NCBI RefSeq assembly: GCF_000013185.1
Contig: NC_007984.1
Coordinates: 193,618-257,617, forward strand
Reading direction: 5' to 3'
DNA length: 64,000 bases
Source: Baumannia cicadellinicola str. Hc (Homalodisca coagulata)
GTDB lineage: Bacteria; Pseudomonadota; Gammaproteobacteria; Enterobacterales; Enterobacteriaceae
Numbering within the stretch: the first letter of the stretch is position 1; each line of letters opens with the position of its first letter. The notes below the pieces were generated by a model, which was not told the DNA's origin, did not search any database, and worked only from the letters and a program-made list of their open reading frames with translations. The translations under genes were made by a program, and so were the position numbers. Below, piece after piece: positions 6,886 through 49,306 of the stretch.

Positions 6886-6963
6886 TGGTCCGCCCGACAG
6901 GATTCGAACCTGAGGCCTCTGCCTTCGGAGGGCAGCACTCTATCCATACTGAGCTACGGGCGT
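6886..6963 (-). tRNA. argX: tRNA-Arg (anticodon CCG)
   Basis: The anticodon loop CTCCGAA gives CCG, reading CGG codons. CCA is encoded. Two oddities relative to E. coli argX: the first acceptor pair is A1 opposite G72 rather than G-C, and the D-loop is one base longer. The rest of the cloverleaf is sound. It is the first gene of the operon in transcription order. Confidence 0.93.
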
Positions 6964-7101
6964 CCAATATTACTACTATTTGGATGTTGATCCTAATAGT
7001 TTACCAGATTACTGTCTAGTGCGATTTTAAAATAAATAATCTTTTTAAGATTGTCACTGCATAGTAACATATAGATAATCAATTACTAGTCAGTAATCAA
7101 C

Positions 7102-7116
7102 CGTTAACAGTTAACG
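7102..7116. repeat. Perfect 7-1-7 palindrome downstream of rho
   Basis: CGTTAACAGTTAACG is a perfect inverted repeat with a one-base centre, about 100 bases past the rho stop. No T-run follows on the minus strand, so an intrinsic terminator is doubtful. A second, weaker repeat (ATTACT/AGTAAT) lies just before it at 7083-7098. The rest of 6964-7212 shows nothing I recognise. Confidence 0.4.
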
Positions 7117-7212
7117 ATTGTACATAATTATTCTAATATATTTATGTTATATAGAACAACTATCCTACTATTAAATAACAATTAATTATTACAACATAGA
7201 TATTTTATCTTC

Positions 7213-8472
7213 TTAATAACGTTTCATCATATCAAAAAATTCATCGTTAGTTTTAGTCATTGCTAACTTATTCATCAAGAATTCCATTGCATCTATTTCA
7301 CACATTGGATGGATAATTTTACGTAAAATCCACATTTTCTGTAGTTCTTCCTGAGTAGTAAGCAATTCTTCTTTCCGTGTACCAGACCGGTTATAGTCGA
7401 TAGCCGGGAATACACGTTTTTCTGCAATTTTACGTGATAAATGTAATTCCATATTACCCGTACCTTTAAATTCTTCGTAAATCACTTCGTCCATTTTTGA
7501 ACCGGTATCAATTAATGCGGTAGCTATAATAGTTAAACTACCACCCTCTTCTATATTGCGAGCAGCCCCAAAAAATCGTTTAGGACGATGCAAAGCGTTA
7601 GCATCTACACCACCCGTTAATACCTTACCTGAGGCAGGTACTACCGTATTATATGCCCGAGCCAAACGAGTAATAGAATCTAATAATATCATTACATCTT
7701 TTTTATGCTCTACGAGACGCTTTGCTTTCTCGATAACCATTTCTGCGACTTGCACATGTCGCGCTGCCGGTTCATCAAATGTTGAAGCAATAACTTCACC
7801 TTTCACGAGACGCTGCATTTCTGTAACTTCTTCTGGGCGTTCATCAATTAATAAAACTATTAGCACACAATTAGGATAATTATAGGTAATACTTTGTGCA
7901 ATATTTTGCATAAGCATTGTTTTACCAGCTTTTGGCGGAGCTACTATCAGACCACGTTGACCACACCCAATAGGCGATGCTAAATCTAGCACGCGAGCGG
8001 TTAAATCTTCTGTCGAACCGTTTCCACGTTCCATACGCAAACGTAAATTAGCATGCAACGGAGTCAAATTTTCGAATAAAATTTTATTACGGGCATTTTC
8101 CGGTTTATCGTAATTAACCTCATTAACTTTTAATAGTGCGAAGTATCGTTCACCTTCTTTTGGTGGACGAATTTTACCAGAAATAGTATCACCTGTACGT
8201 AAGTTAAAACGGCGAATTTGACTGGGAGAAACATATATATCATCTGGGCCGGCTAAGTAGGAACTATCACTAGAACGTAGAAAGCCAAATCCATCTTGCA
8301 GTATTTCGAGTACGCCATCGCCAAAAATATCTTCTCCACTTTTAGCGTGTTGCTTTAGTGTGGCGAAGATGATGTCTTGTTTTCGCATGCGTGCTATGTT
8401 TTCTAGTCCCATCTTTTCGCCGATTATTATTAACTCCGAAACTGGCGTATTTTTTAATTCGGTCAGGTTCAT
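7213..8472 (-). CDS. rho: Transcription termination factor Rho
   Basis: A hexameric RNA helicase that terminates transcription. It is 419 aa, the same as E. coli and nearly identical across its length. The N-terminal RNA-binding cold-shock-like domain includes [18 protein letters not shown]. The Walker A loop is [13 protein letters not shown] near residue 175, Walker [18 protein letters not shown], and the Q-loop/R-loop region [21 protein letters not shown] is intact. Order trxA-rho on the same strand is as in E. coli, with a gap of about 90 bases. Confidence 0.98.
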
Positions 8473-43380: not shown

Positions 43381-45072
<1,692 letters not shown>

Positions 45073-45120
45073 TCAGCGATGATGCTACAAATATAAGCTA
45101 GTATAATAGATTGCTAACGA

Positions 45121-45801
45121 TTATTTGTATTTCCAGTGCGCAGCTATACCTAATTCAGCATCTTTATGCATCTGATTAGTACGAATTTGAATTTCTATAT
45201 TTTTACTGTTTGGTCCTAGTACTACGGTATGAATCGATTGGTAACCATTAGGTTTGGGATAAGCAATATAATCATCAAATTTATCCGGGAGATAATTAAA
45301 ATGATCATGAATAAGACTGAGTATAGTATAGCAATCTTGTAGTTGCTTCACTACGATACGTACGGCGTACAAATCGAATAATTCGTTAAAAGCTAGCACT
45401 TTTGTCTGCATTTTACGCCAGATACTATAAATATGTTTTGGACGGCCATAAATTTGATTTACCTCAAGTCCAGCATTATGCATTGATTGACGTAAAAACC
45501 GCACGAAGTTATCAATATATATTTCTCGAGCGATACGACGTTCGTGTAGTAGTTGAACTATATGCCTATATTCATTAGGATATAGGTAGTTAAATACACG
45601 ATCCTCTAGCTCCCATTTTAACTGACTCAGCCAGAGATAGTTTGCTAGTGGTGCGTAAATATGAGTATTATCTTGAGCTACTAAGACCCGTTTATTTTCT
45701 GTTGCATTTTGTCTTTCACGTAGCTTAGCAATATGCTTTGCGAGCTGAATAACTAAGCTGCTAAAATTATCTTGTAGTAAGATACGGTATACTTTATTCA
45801 T
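45121..45801 (-). CDS. relA: RelA synthetase-domain fragment with its own open frame
   Basis: 226 codons matching E. coli RelA from about residue 137 to 363: the end of the pseudo-hydrolase region and the complete (p)ppGpp synthetase domain. YGRPKHIYSIWRKMQ, FDDYIAYPKPNGYQSIHTVV and IEIQIRTNQMHKDAELG are conserved, including the catalytic Asp of FDD and the Glu of IEIQIRT. The EXDD motif of RelA reads KFDD here. The stop falls right after HWKYK; the TGS, helical, zinc-finger and ACT domains are absent and only about 110 bases remain before pyrG. It may be a functional minimal synthetase or a decaying fragment. No clear ribosome binding site. Confidence 0.85.
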   Translation of the reverse strand: MNKVYRILLQDNFSSLVIQLAKHIAKLRERQNATENKRVLVAQDNTHIYAPLANYLWLSQLKWELEDRVFNYLYPNEYRHIVQLLHERRIAREIYIDNFVRFLRQSMHNAGLEVNQIYGRPKHIYSIWRKMQTKVLAFNELFDLYAVRIVVKQLQDCYTILSLIHDHFNYLPDKFDDYIAYPKPNGYQSIHTVVLGPNSKNIEIQIRTNQMHKDAELGIAAHWKYK

Positions 45802-46155
45802 ATACTTAGTTTCTATAGTTTGATAAAAAGCTATATTAAGTTGGTAAGTTGGTGAATAATATTCACCTCACGTACACCGTAAATAAAATGTAATACATTT
45901 TTGTGGCAGTATGCTGCCAAAATATTATCTTATATAAATCCAATAGAAGCTAGAGGAAACAACAATGCAGCACATAAACTATCGTTATCCATGCTTAGCA
46001 TAGATAAAATTTATAACATATCAATACTACGCTAGAGTAACATAGTATACTATTGCTTGCAGTAGGGTATAGAAGAGCAACTAATTTGACCGCTAGTTAG
46101 ATAACCTTAAATTAACTAGATAGATAAAAGTTTGGATTTATGACCGCAATAACTA
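45802..46155 (-). pseudogene. relA: Decayed N-terminal half of relA
   Basis: Minus-strand translation upstream of the intact fragment still follows RelA: TSGQISC and PYCKQ, then LL*RSIDML*ILSMLSMD, AALLFPLA (identical in E. coli, 45948-45975), DNILAAYCHKNVLHFIYGVREVNIIHQL. A TAG replaces the Trp of LLWRG at about 46032-46034 and TAA codons occur at 46014 and near 45936. At 45837-45852 the 8-mer TAAGTTGG is duplicated in tandem; removing one copy restores a continuous frame into the synthetase fragment. The remaining 46156-46358 shows nothing beyond the mtnN promoter region. Confidence 0.85.
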
Positions 46156-46358: not shown

Positions 46359-47048
46359 ATGATAATTGGCGTTATAGGAGCAATGGAACAAGAAGTAATG
46401 TTGCTTAGTAAGCAATTAGCCAAACTAAATATATGGCAACAGGCTAGATGTAATATTTATAGTGGTTGGTTGCATGGAAAAAAAGTAGTCTTAGTCCAAT
46501 CAGGGATTGGAAAGGTATCAGCTGCATTAGGCTGTACGCTACTACTAACTAATTTTGAAGCAACATTAGTTATTAACATAGGTTCAGCTGGCGGTTTATC
46601 ACCGGCATTAGCAGTTGGTGATATTATTGTATCGGAAGAAGTACAATATCACGATGTTAATGTAACAGCTTTTGGCTATGATAAAGGACAAATGGCTCAA
46701 TACCCATTATTATTTCCAGCGTCGCCTTCGTTAGTAGCTTTAACTAAGCAACTAACAGAACATACTAATATAAATGTCGTATGCGGTCAAATTATTAGTG
46801 GCGATATATTTATTAATGGCGGACAAGAGTTATATAAGCTTAAACGTAGATTTCCACAAGCAATAGCAGTAGATATGGAAGTAACTGCTATTGCTCAGAT
46901 ATGTTATCTGTTTGCTGTCCCCTTTGTAGGGATCCGTGTTATTACGGATATAGCTGACTCTGTTTCTCATAAGAGTTTTAAAGATAACCTAATAACAGTA
47001 GTATCTCATTTATCATTACTAGTATCAGATATAATACAAGCTTTATAA
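46359..47048 (+). CDS. mtnN: 5'-methylthioadenosine/S-adenosylhomocysteine nucleosidase
   Basis: It cleaves adenine from MTA, S-adenosylhomocysteine and 5'-deoxyadenosine, relieving product inhibition of SAM-dependent and radical-SAM enzymes such as LipA and QueE in this window. 229 aa against 232. Catalytic residues: Glu12 in GAMEQEV, Glu in VDMEVTAIAQ near residue 173, Asp in VITDIAD near 197. The adenine site GSAGG is intact. Convergent with erpA; btuF and yadS between them in E. coli are missing. Confidence 0.96.
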   Translation: MIIGVIGAMEQEVMLLSKQLAKLNIWQQARCNIYSGWLHGKKVVLVQSGIGKVSAALGCTLLLTNFEATLVINIGSAGGLSPALAVGDIIVSEEVQYHDVNVTAFGYDKGQMAQYPLLFPASPSLVALTKQLTEHTNINVVCGQIISGDIFINGGQELYKLKRRFPQAIAVDMEVTAIAQICYLFAVPFVGIRVITDIADSVSHKSFKDNLITVVSHLSLLVSDIIQAL

Positions 47049-48850: not shown

Positions 48851-49306
48851 ATGCTCAAAAGCAAAAATCGTAAAGCATCCTCCTTAAGTATTCTTACCAT
48901 AGCTGGGTTAGAACCATATCAACTGAAGCCTGGCGAAAAATATATGAATGATGCCCAACTACTCTATTTTAGATGTATTTTAGAAACTTGGCGTAATCAA
49001 CTGCGAGATGAAGTTGAGCGTACCGTTTTACATATGCGAGATGAGGCGGCCAATTTTCCTGACCCGGTAGATAGAGCTGCTCAAGAAGAAGAATTTAATC
49101 TTGAACTACGTAATCGTGATCGAGAACGTAAACTAATAAAAAAAATAGAAAAAACTCTAAAAAAAGTGGAAGAAAATAATTTTGGTTTCTGTGAAACTTG
49201 CGGTATTGAAATTGGTATACGCCGCTTAGAAGCACGTCCTACCGCTGATTTATGTATAGACTGCAAAACCTTAGCTGAAATTAGAGAAAAACAAATAGTA
49301 GGATAA
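48851..49306 (+). CDS. dksA: RNA polymerase-binding transcription factor DksA
   Basis: It binds the RNA polymerase secondary channel and, with ppGpp, resets transcription of rRNA and biosynthetic promoters. 151 aa, the same length as in E. coli. The coiled coil with tip residues [11 protein letters not shown] (the two Asp near 71 and 74) and the zinc finger CETC ... CIDC are intact. A strong GAAGGAGAAG ribosome binding site precedes the ATG. Its partner ppGpp would have to come from the truncated RelA at 45.1 kb or from SpoT elsewhere. Confidence 0.97.

Follow-up and report, generated by a model that had tools for sequence, protein, structure and literature searches.

The long RSH enzyme RelA of Escherichia coli has a pseudo-hydrolase part (residues 1-200), a synthetase domain (~201-380) and a TGS domain at residues 405-470 (PMC4974054), and a loop at residues 114-130 is described as controlling its synthetase activity (PMC8012599). 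The enzyme has been described as constitutively active once its C-terminal part is truncated (PMC8321558), and Atkinson and colleagues predicted that a residue near the RXKD/EXDD motif passes signals between the domains of long RSH proteins (PMC3153485). A split between a synthesizing RelA[hS] and a hydrolase-only SpoT[Hs], in which SpoT is still a long RSH, is known from the Moraxellaceae (PMC9974481). In a set of 19 E. coli clones lacking spoT, relA was inactive in 8 and changed but ppGpp-making in 11, some of the latter with changes in the pseudo-hydrolase part of RelA (PMC4154780). Reduced endosymbionts are described as mostly devoid of RSH enzymes, with ‘Baumania’ among the genera having none in the 2011 survey by Atkinson (PMC3153485), and ppGpp in reed-beetle symbionts has been raised as a possibility only (PMC12508126). 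Among the matches listed for open-licence PMC papers on relA or spoT in Baumannia, or on truncation, loss or subfunctionalization of RelA or SpoT in symbionts, we recognised none that describes the situation presented here.

The stretch of DNA analysed here (the window) comprises 64,000 nucleotides (193618-257617) of the genome of Baumannia cicadellinicola str. Hc from the glassy-winged sharpshooter. A sequence-only reading had described its relA as reduced to an open synthetase fragment within a broken gene, and this description is borne out: a frame of 226 codons stands open, and the remains upstream of it carry stops. From the comparisons presented below, we think it probable that this piece is kept for use as a minimal catalytic core, a weak constitutive synthetase supplying basal (p)ppGpp.

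A relA fragment beside pyrG

The window genome (Baumannia, designated G000) is a single contig of 686,194 bp; G001, G002 (759,425 bp) and G003 are the other three genomes of the genus. On the minus strand of the window, eno, pyrG and the relA fragment lie in a row, and a gene that we take, by resemblance, to be mtn/pfs-like diverges upstream. The features, in window coordinates, are:

43381..45012, minus strand: pyrG, the intact downstream neighbour, used as a control gene
45013..45120, minus strand: spacer of 108 nt from the relA stop to pyrG; relA C-terminal homology, none found
45121..45801, minus strand: relA fragment, 226-codon open frame, corresponding to about residues 133-358 of E. coli RelA
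45124..45480, minus strand: catalytic part (E. coli RelA ~241-358), apparently constrained, with 20/20 catalytic-motif residues
45481..45801, minus strand: open but apparently relaxed part (E. coli RelA ~133-240), with 19/56 near-invariant sites changed
45802..45845, minus strand: frameshift or insertion leading from the N-terminal remains to the open frame, placed by alignment
45846..46097 (about), minus strand: remains of the N-terminal, pseudo-hydrolase part, disrupted by 4 in-frame stops over 83 aligned codons
46098..46155 (approximate limits), minus strand: further upstream remains and altered start-codon region, from DNA alignment with G002/G003
46359..47048, plus strand: divergent upstream neighbour, presumably mtn/pfs-like
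48851..49306, plus strand: dksA-like gene, retained, with a zf-dskA_traR match over the cut-off

The open frame starts with an ATG at 45801 and ends with HWKYK-TAA at 45121; pyrG begins with the ATG at 45012. Residues 7-226 of the fragment match residues 140-358 of PDB chain 5iqr_8 ‘GTP pyrophosphokinase’ (E 1.6e-92), which we take to be E. coli RelA. The fragment is nearer to RelA than to SpoT (tblastn summed bits of 368 and 168, respectively), and it occupies the position of a RelA ortholog beside pyrG-eno. The full domain set of a long RSH (pseudo-HD, SYNTH, TGS, helical, ZFD, RRM/ACT) is not present, only ~133-358 being open. Homology to RelA past residue 358 was not found at the locus, in agreement with the claim that nothing of RelA is left after HWKYK. 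That the 226 codons cover exactly the synthetase domain is incorrect, as the frame opens at ~133, within the pseudo-hydrolase part, and runs to 358.

Upstream of the open frame, in a frame different from its own, the N-terminal remains carry the four stops, which replace one Q, two E and one W codon of the intact G003 gene, together with indels, the altered start-codon region and a sub-threshold HD_4 match that itself contains stops. The several stops and the frameshift noticed earlier in the RelA N-terminal half are therefore real, and the original gene has undergone disabling changes in its N-terminal part.

The fragment resembles E. coli RelA in sequence, in its pyrG-adjacent position and in its catalytic residues, but lacks residues 1-132, the TGS and all later domains, and has K for E306 in EXDD. 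Laboratory truncations of RelA likewise lack the C-terminal domains; here, in contrast, the truncation is natural, the G002 and G003 copies end at 358, and the window copy is also without residues 1-132. With its synthetase domain standing alone and no ribosome domains attached, it would work like the small alarmone synthetases RelP and RelQ, but it is derived by decay of relA and is not one of them: RelA-type chains match it at E 1e-92, while YwaC, YjbM and other short synthetases (chains that we assume to be RelP/RelQ) match at 3e-8 to 8e-5.

By sequence, the (p)ppGpp synthetase domain is recognisable from a Pfam RelA_SpoT match of 143 bits and from the catalytic-motif residues, all 20 of which are present, as had been claimed; the same count (20/20) is found in all 12 C-terminally truncated copies computed, the window copy and 11 others. 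The EXDD motif departs from the rule, reading KFDD in G000, G002 and G003, where 75 of 77 RelA copies have E and two have H. At this position (E306; codon at window 45280-45282), K is confined to no single copy, being found in the same three genomes, and Q is found in G048, G065 and G134. Changes in the catalytic part of truncated copies recur at G294, H302, E306, A312, P316, R277 and A292; G294 matches by motif the signal-passing residue of Atkinson, suggesting that the proposed interface residues drift while the catalytic ones stay. The assignment of a fold draws on matches in sequence to solved RelA and on the output of the AlphaFold2 model itself, whose pLDDT averages 86.5 but is below 50 over the final eight residues; the structure alignment took in 33 of 80 loci. 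It is conceivable that the product is a poor catalyst and persists for some function other than catalysis, nucleotide binding for example, given the changes R188Y and G190W, the many changes in supporting helices and E306K in EXDD of G000, G002 and G003. That every catalytic-motif residue is conserved in this copy, as in 11 more truncated ones, makes this improbable, as binding alone has no obvious need for all of them.

Ancestral truncation and selection on the fragment

The HWKYK-stop DNA pattern was found in 3 of the 392 genomes of the family that were scanned, namely G000, G002 and G003, three of the four genomes of the genus. In G002 and G003, RelA has a normal start, is open for 348 and 354 codons, respectively, and ends with HWKYK-TAA, and the three members that have relA share the identical DNA end TACAAATAA. 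The shared end places the C-terminal loss in the ancestor of the genus, and the claim that it is part of the decay of this gene was rejected; on this comparison, the N-terminal decay alone is the window genome's own and the C-terminal loss is older. Comparison of G002 with G003 gives the truncated RelA an omega of 0.156 over 348 codons (N part 0.17, C part 0.14), and omega = 1 is rejected (2dlnL 90.9). Such purifying selection indicates that RelA without its TGS, helical, zinc-finger and RRM/ACT domains is kept as a protein in these species. In G001, a profile search gave no RelA_SpoT match; relA is among the reported losses in one strain of the Baumannia symbiont (PMC4758232). G001 is also without HD_4 or RNA polymerase omega matches, yet keeps dksA.

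Each species is represented by a single genome, so that selection was compared between species of the genus, using a three-taxon codon model written for this analysis. On the branch of the window genome, which carries ~2 to 2.5 neutral substitutions per codon, making saturation a concern for the codon model, relA has an omega of 0.19 (pyrG 0.05, eno 0.07), and omega = 1 is rejected (2dlnL 49). The open frame thus does not show the omega near 1 of a pseudogene, and the test proposed earlier, in which dN/dS near 1 or stops in sister strains would count against the fragment, left it standing when run between species. For the N-terminal remains together with residues 133-240 (the first 107 codons), the neutral fraction of the branch is 0.27, compared with 0 for the catalytic ~118 codons; two values fit better than a shared one (2dlnL 13.5, 1 df, p about 2e-4, calculated by hand), and in the catalytic part a neutral fraction above about 0.13 (interpolated) is disfavoured. 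This regional contrast in relaxation is weakened by the uneven background omegas of the congeners, 0.07 then 0.24 for the two halves in G002 and 0.28 then 0.18 in G003.

A second comparison, which needs no dS and is thus independent of saturation, used near-invariant sites defined from 77 of 80 RelA loci (three were dropped). In the window copy, 19/56 such sites are changed in residues 133-240 and 6/69 in residues 241-358 (p 6e-4), while G002 and G003 each have 4/57 and 4/69. Overall, 24/124 sites are changed in the window copy (25/125 in a second alignment), R188Y and G190W among the changes, versus 8/124 per congener. By these sequence measures, residues ~133-240, roughly half of the open frame, look relaxed.

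The fragment might instead be kept as DNA, as a pyrG promoter or leader for instance, and not as protein. Its position immediately upstream of pyrG, in the same orientation, and the identity of its end TACAAATAA in three genus members would fit such a role. However, four-fold sites of the catalytic part diverge from G002 like those of pyrG (15/33 and 101/210, respectively) while its amino acids are constrained, and promoter-like matches occur at chance level (10 vs 8.7, sd 2.7), no promoter-like or terminator-like signal at the locus exceeding shuffled sequence. Constraint at the DNA level was accordingly rejected, and we consider this explanation very improbable. By eye, the ribosome-binding context of the internal ATG is weak.

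A more serious challenge to use of the fragment as a synthetase is that relA may be a very recent pseudogene: RelA would have worked until lately, the N-terminus would have broken, and the catalytic frame would be open for lack of time. A 19-residue block in the N-terminal remains is identical in both congeners, indicating that this region died late too, and the omega of the catalytic part is a long-branch average compatible with a neutral fraction of up to about 0.13. Simulations at 0.2 neutral substitutions per codon still give a chance of 0.13 that all 226 codons escape a stop, and full inactivation of relA is common after loss of spoT in E. coli (8/19 clones, PMC4154780). In contrast, at 0.5 substitutions per codon that chance falls to 0.01, all four nonsense changes lie within the remains (0.005 by position, post hoc), the neutral fraction is about 0.27 in the remains plus residues 133-240 and 0 in the catalytic part, and the same skew is seen again in other genera. 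We therefore regard recent death of the gene as rather unlikely, although it deserves real weight.

SpoT and truncated RelA in the genus and in other small genomes

The search of the genome for spoT that had been suggested was carried out, and spoT is absent from the window genome: a single PF04607 match was obtained genome-wide, the relA fragment itself, and the rpoZ and recG matches, between which G002 has spoT, are only 314 bp apart. A SpoT elsewhere in the genome was rejected, since RelA_SpoT matched nowhere else and the only HD_4 matches fell within the relA remains. In the G003 draft (190 contigs), rpoZ and full-length recG were not found. The gene dksA is present in all four genomes of the genus, and rpoZ in G000 and G002. 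Other (p)ppGpp hydrolases were considered and rejected for the window genome, where the sole Ppx-GppA match is below the cut-off and the two NUDIX matches are to proteins that, judged by eye, we take to be RppH and NudE and not MutT or NudG. Overexpression of either MutT or NudG replaces SpoT in E. coli (PMC7593582).

To place the genus among its relatives, we selected 71 small genomes out of the 392 on the basis of their size (0.2 to 2.8 Mb), mostly one per genus and with some small congeners left out; from their size, they are presumably symbionts. A RelA_SpoT match is present in 25 and absent from 46. In ten of them (G011, G016, G048, G055, G065, G097, G107, G134, G147 and G237), the catalytic domain is open and everything from TGS onward is lost or broken; the motif filter overlooked two of these, G107, which was added later, and G055, which was read by eye. 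Leading homology ends at residues 359-412 in these ten copies (at 359, one residue from the window end point, in G134) and at 358 in G000, G002 and G003, that is, short of TGS or at its edge.

The N-terminal end has receded as well. No N-terminal homology is left before residues 128-142 in G011, G048, G065 and G237, and in G016 the N-terminus is in pieces with stops, the open part running from near 159, so that all five start at or past the 114-130 loop; some starts are doubtful, the earliest in the G016 frame being a GTG that lies 31 codons in, and TTG being the first codon of G048 and G065. The skew of changes to residues 133-240 recurs in G011, G048, G237 and G065 (p 7e-5 to 0.003), is weaker in G134 (p 0.04) and G016 (0.06), and is not seen in G002, G003, G097 and G147. 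In five further small genomes (G056, G057, G101, G136 and G154), RelA has stops inside the synthetase domain.

The number of losses was counted on a PyrG tree (LG+F+G4), several nodes of which are weak, with supports down to 11. Interspersed among the truncated copies are G113 and G192, with a long open RelA, and G069, with both halves and a frame change near 481-520, and at least six C-terminal losses are counted on this basis: in this genus, in G147, in the group with a stop at W384 (G055, G097 and G107, counted once), in clade B (G011, G065, G134 and G237, counted once), in G016 and in G048. The stop at or next to the E. coli W384 codon in loci L178 (G055), L159 (G097) and L165 (G107) could reflect shared ancestry or repeated change. 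L165 has also lost residues 36-164 in frame and has a frameshift at residue 201, and G107 has no second RelA_SpoT match.

SpoT was compared in ten genomes whose RelA lacks the C-terminal half (G002, G011, G016, G048, G055, G065, G097, G134, G147 and G237). All ten retain 9/9 key residues of the SpoT hydrolase. Key residues of the SpoT synthetase, by contrast, are changed in 7/10, compared with 2/17 other genomes (G113 and G020; p 0.004) or, among small genomes only, 1/9 (p 0.02), in Fisher tests that treat genomes as independent. From this table G208 and G032 were dropped and the reference row was not counted; the SpoT of G069 has masked bases. Residue R270, in the reference frame of the analysis and not in E. 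coli SpoT numbering, is hit in G002 (R270L), G016, G134, G147 and G237, whereas G011, G055 and G065 have an intact SpoT synthetase site and fall outside the reciprocal pattern. The SpoT frames L113 (G002), L184 (G134), L180 (G147), L115 (G016), L177 (G065) and L183 (G048) are short, 295 to 536 aa, and keep the hydrolase motif.

We read these sequences as a recurrent reciprocal degeneration, RelA to a bare synthetase and SpoT to a hydrolase. It would be the same split, synthesis by RelA and hydrolysis by SpoT, as in the Moraxellaceae, except that here RelA itself has lost its regulatory half and the split arises several times in small genomes. A pair of hydrolase-only SpoT and synthetase-only RelA is found in G002, through R270L, but not in the window genome, which has no SpoT and which we read as an end-stage case, its catalytic core apparently constrained and its hydrolase partner gone.

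A possible route to a minimal synthetase

The proposal that best accommodates these observations, use of the fragment as a minimal synthetase, has the following steps. In the ancestor of the genus, RelA would have lost its ribosome- and tRNA-sensing C-terminal half by truncation just after HWKYK, leaving a RelA of ~350 aa that, from work in E. coli, is expected to make (p)ppGpp without the ribosome. SpoT, acting as a hydrolase, would have balanced the truncated RelA while its own synthetase became redundant. In the window lineage, spoT would then have been lost and the pseudo-hydrolase N-terminus of RelA broken, lowering synthesis to a tolerable level; this order of losses is suggested by the E. 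coli clones without spoT together with the constitutive activity of truncated RelA, full inactivation being the other outcome expected. Translation from the internal ATG would now yield the catalytic core, a minimal synthetase that is constitutive and probably weak, since a fully active enzyme is expected to be harmful where no hydrolase is left. The enzyme would provide basal (p)ppGpp to an RNA polymerase whose partners DksA and omega are retained.

The earlier idea of an unregulated minimal synthetase is thus favoured by the selection on the catalytic part, the residues kept and the similar outcomes in other small genomes; it is altered in that the C-terminal loss is ancestral, residues ~133-240 appear relaxed and no hydrolase is left. 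Several observations point the other way: R188Y, G190W and the 24/124 changed sites, the low-pLDDT end, the lack of a promoter signal, the weak ribosome-binding context, the uneven background omegas, the 8/19 E. coli clones without RelA activity after spoT loss, the lack of a RelA_SpoT match in G001, the 46/71 small genomes without a match and the five with stops inside the RelA synthetase domain.

More tentatively, and at somewhat less than even odds in our judgement, several reduced lineages may have independently rebuilt the alarmone cycle as a bare RelA synthetase and a SpoT hydrolase, the window organism being left with synthesis only and (p)ppGpp serving it as a constant housekeeping nucleotide rather than an alarm. 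Retention of a bare synthetase, if real, would suggest that a basal level of (p)ppGpp may be of value even to a cell that has given up ribosome sensing. As a series, the truncated copies form a natural deletion map of RelA, marking the parts that stay once regulation is gone. Elsewhere in the window, two paired ORFs at 6947-7213 are 266 bp apart, and ~12 kb lies between them in G002 (G002:C1:223206-235488).
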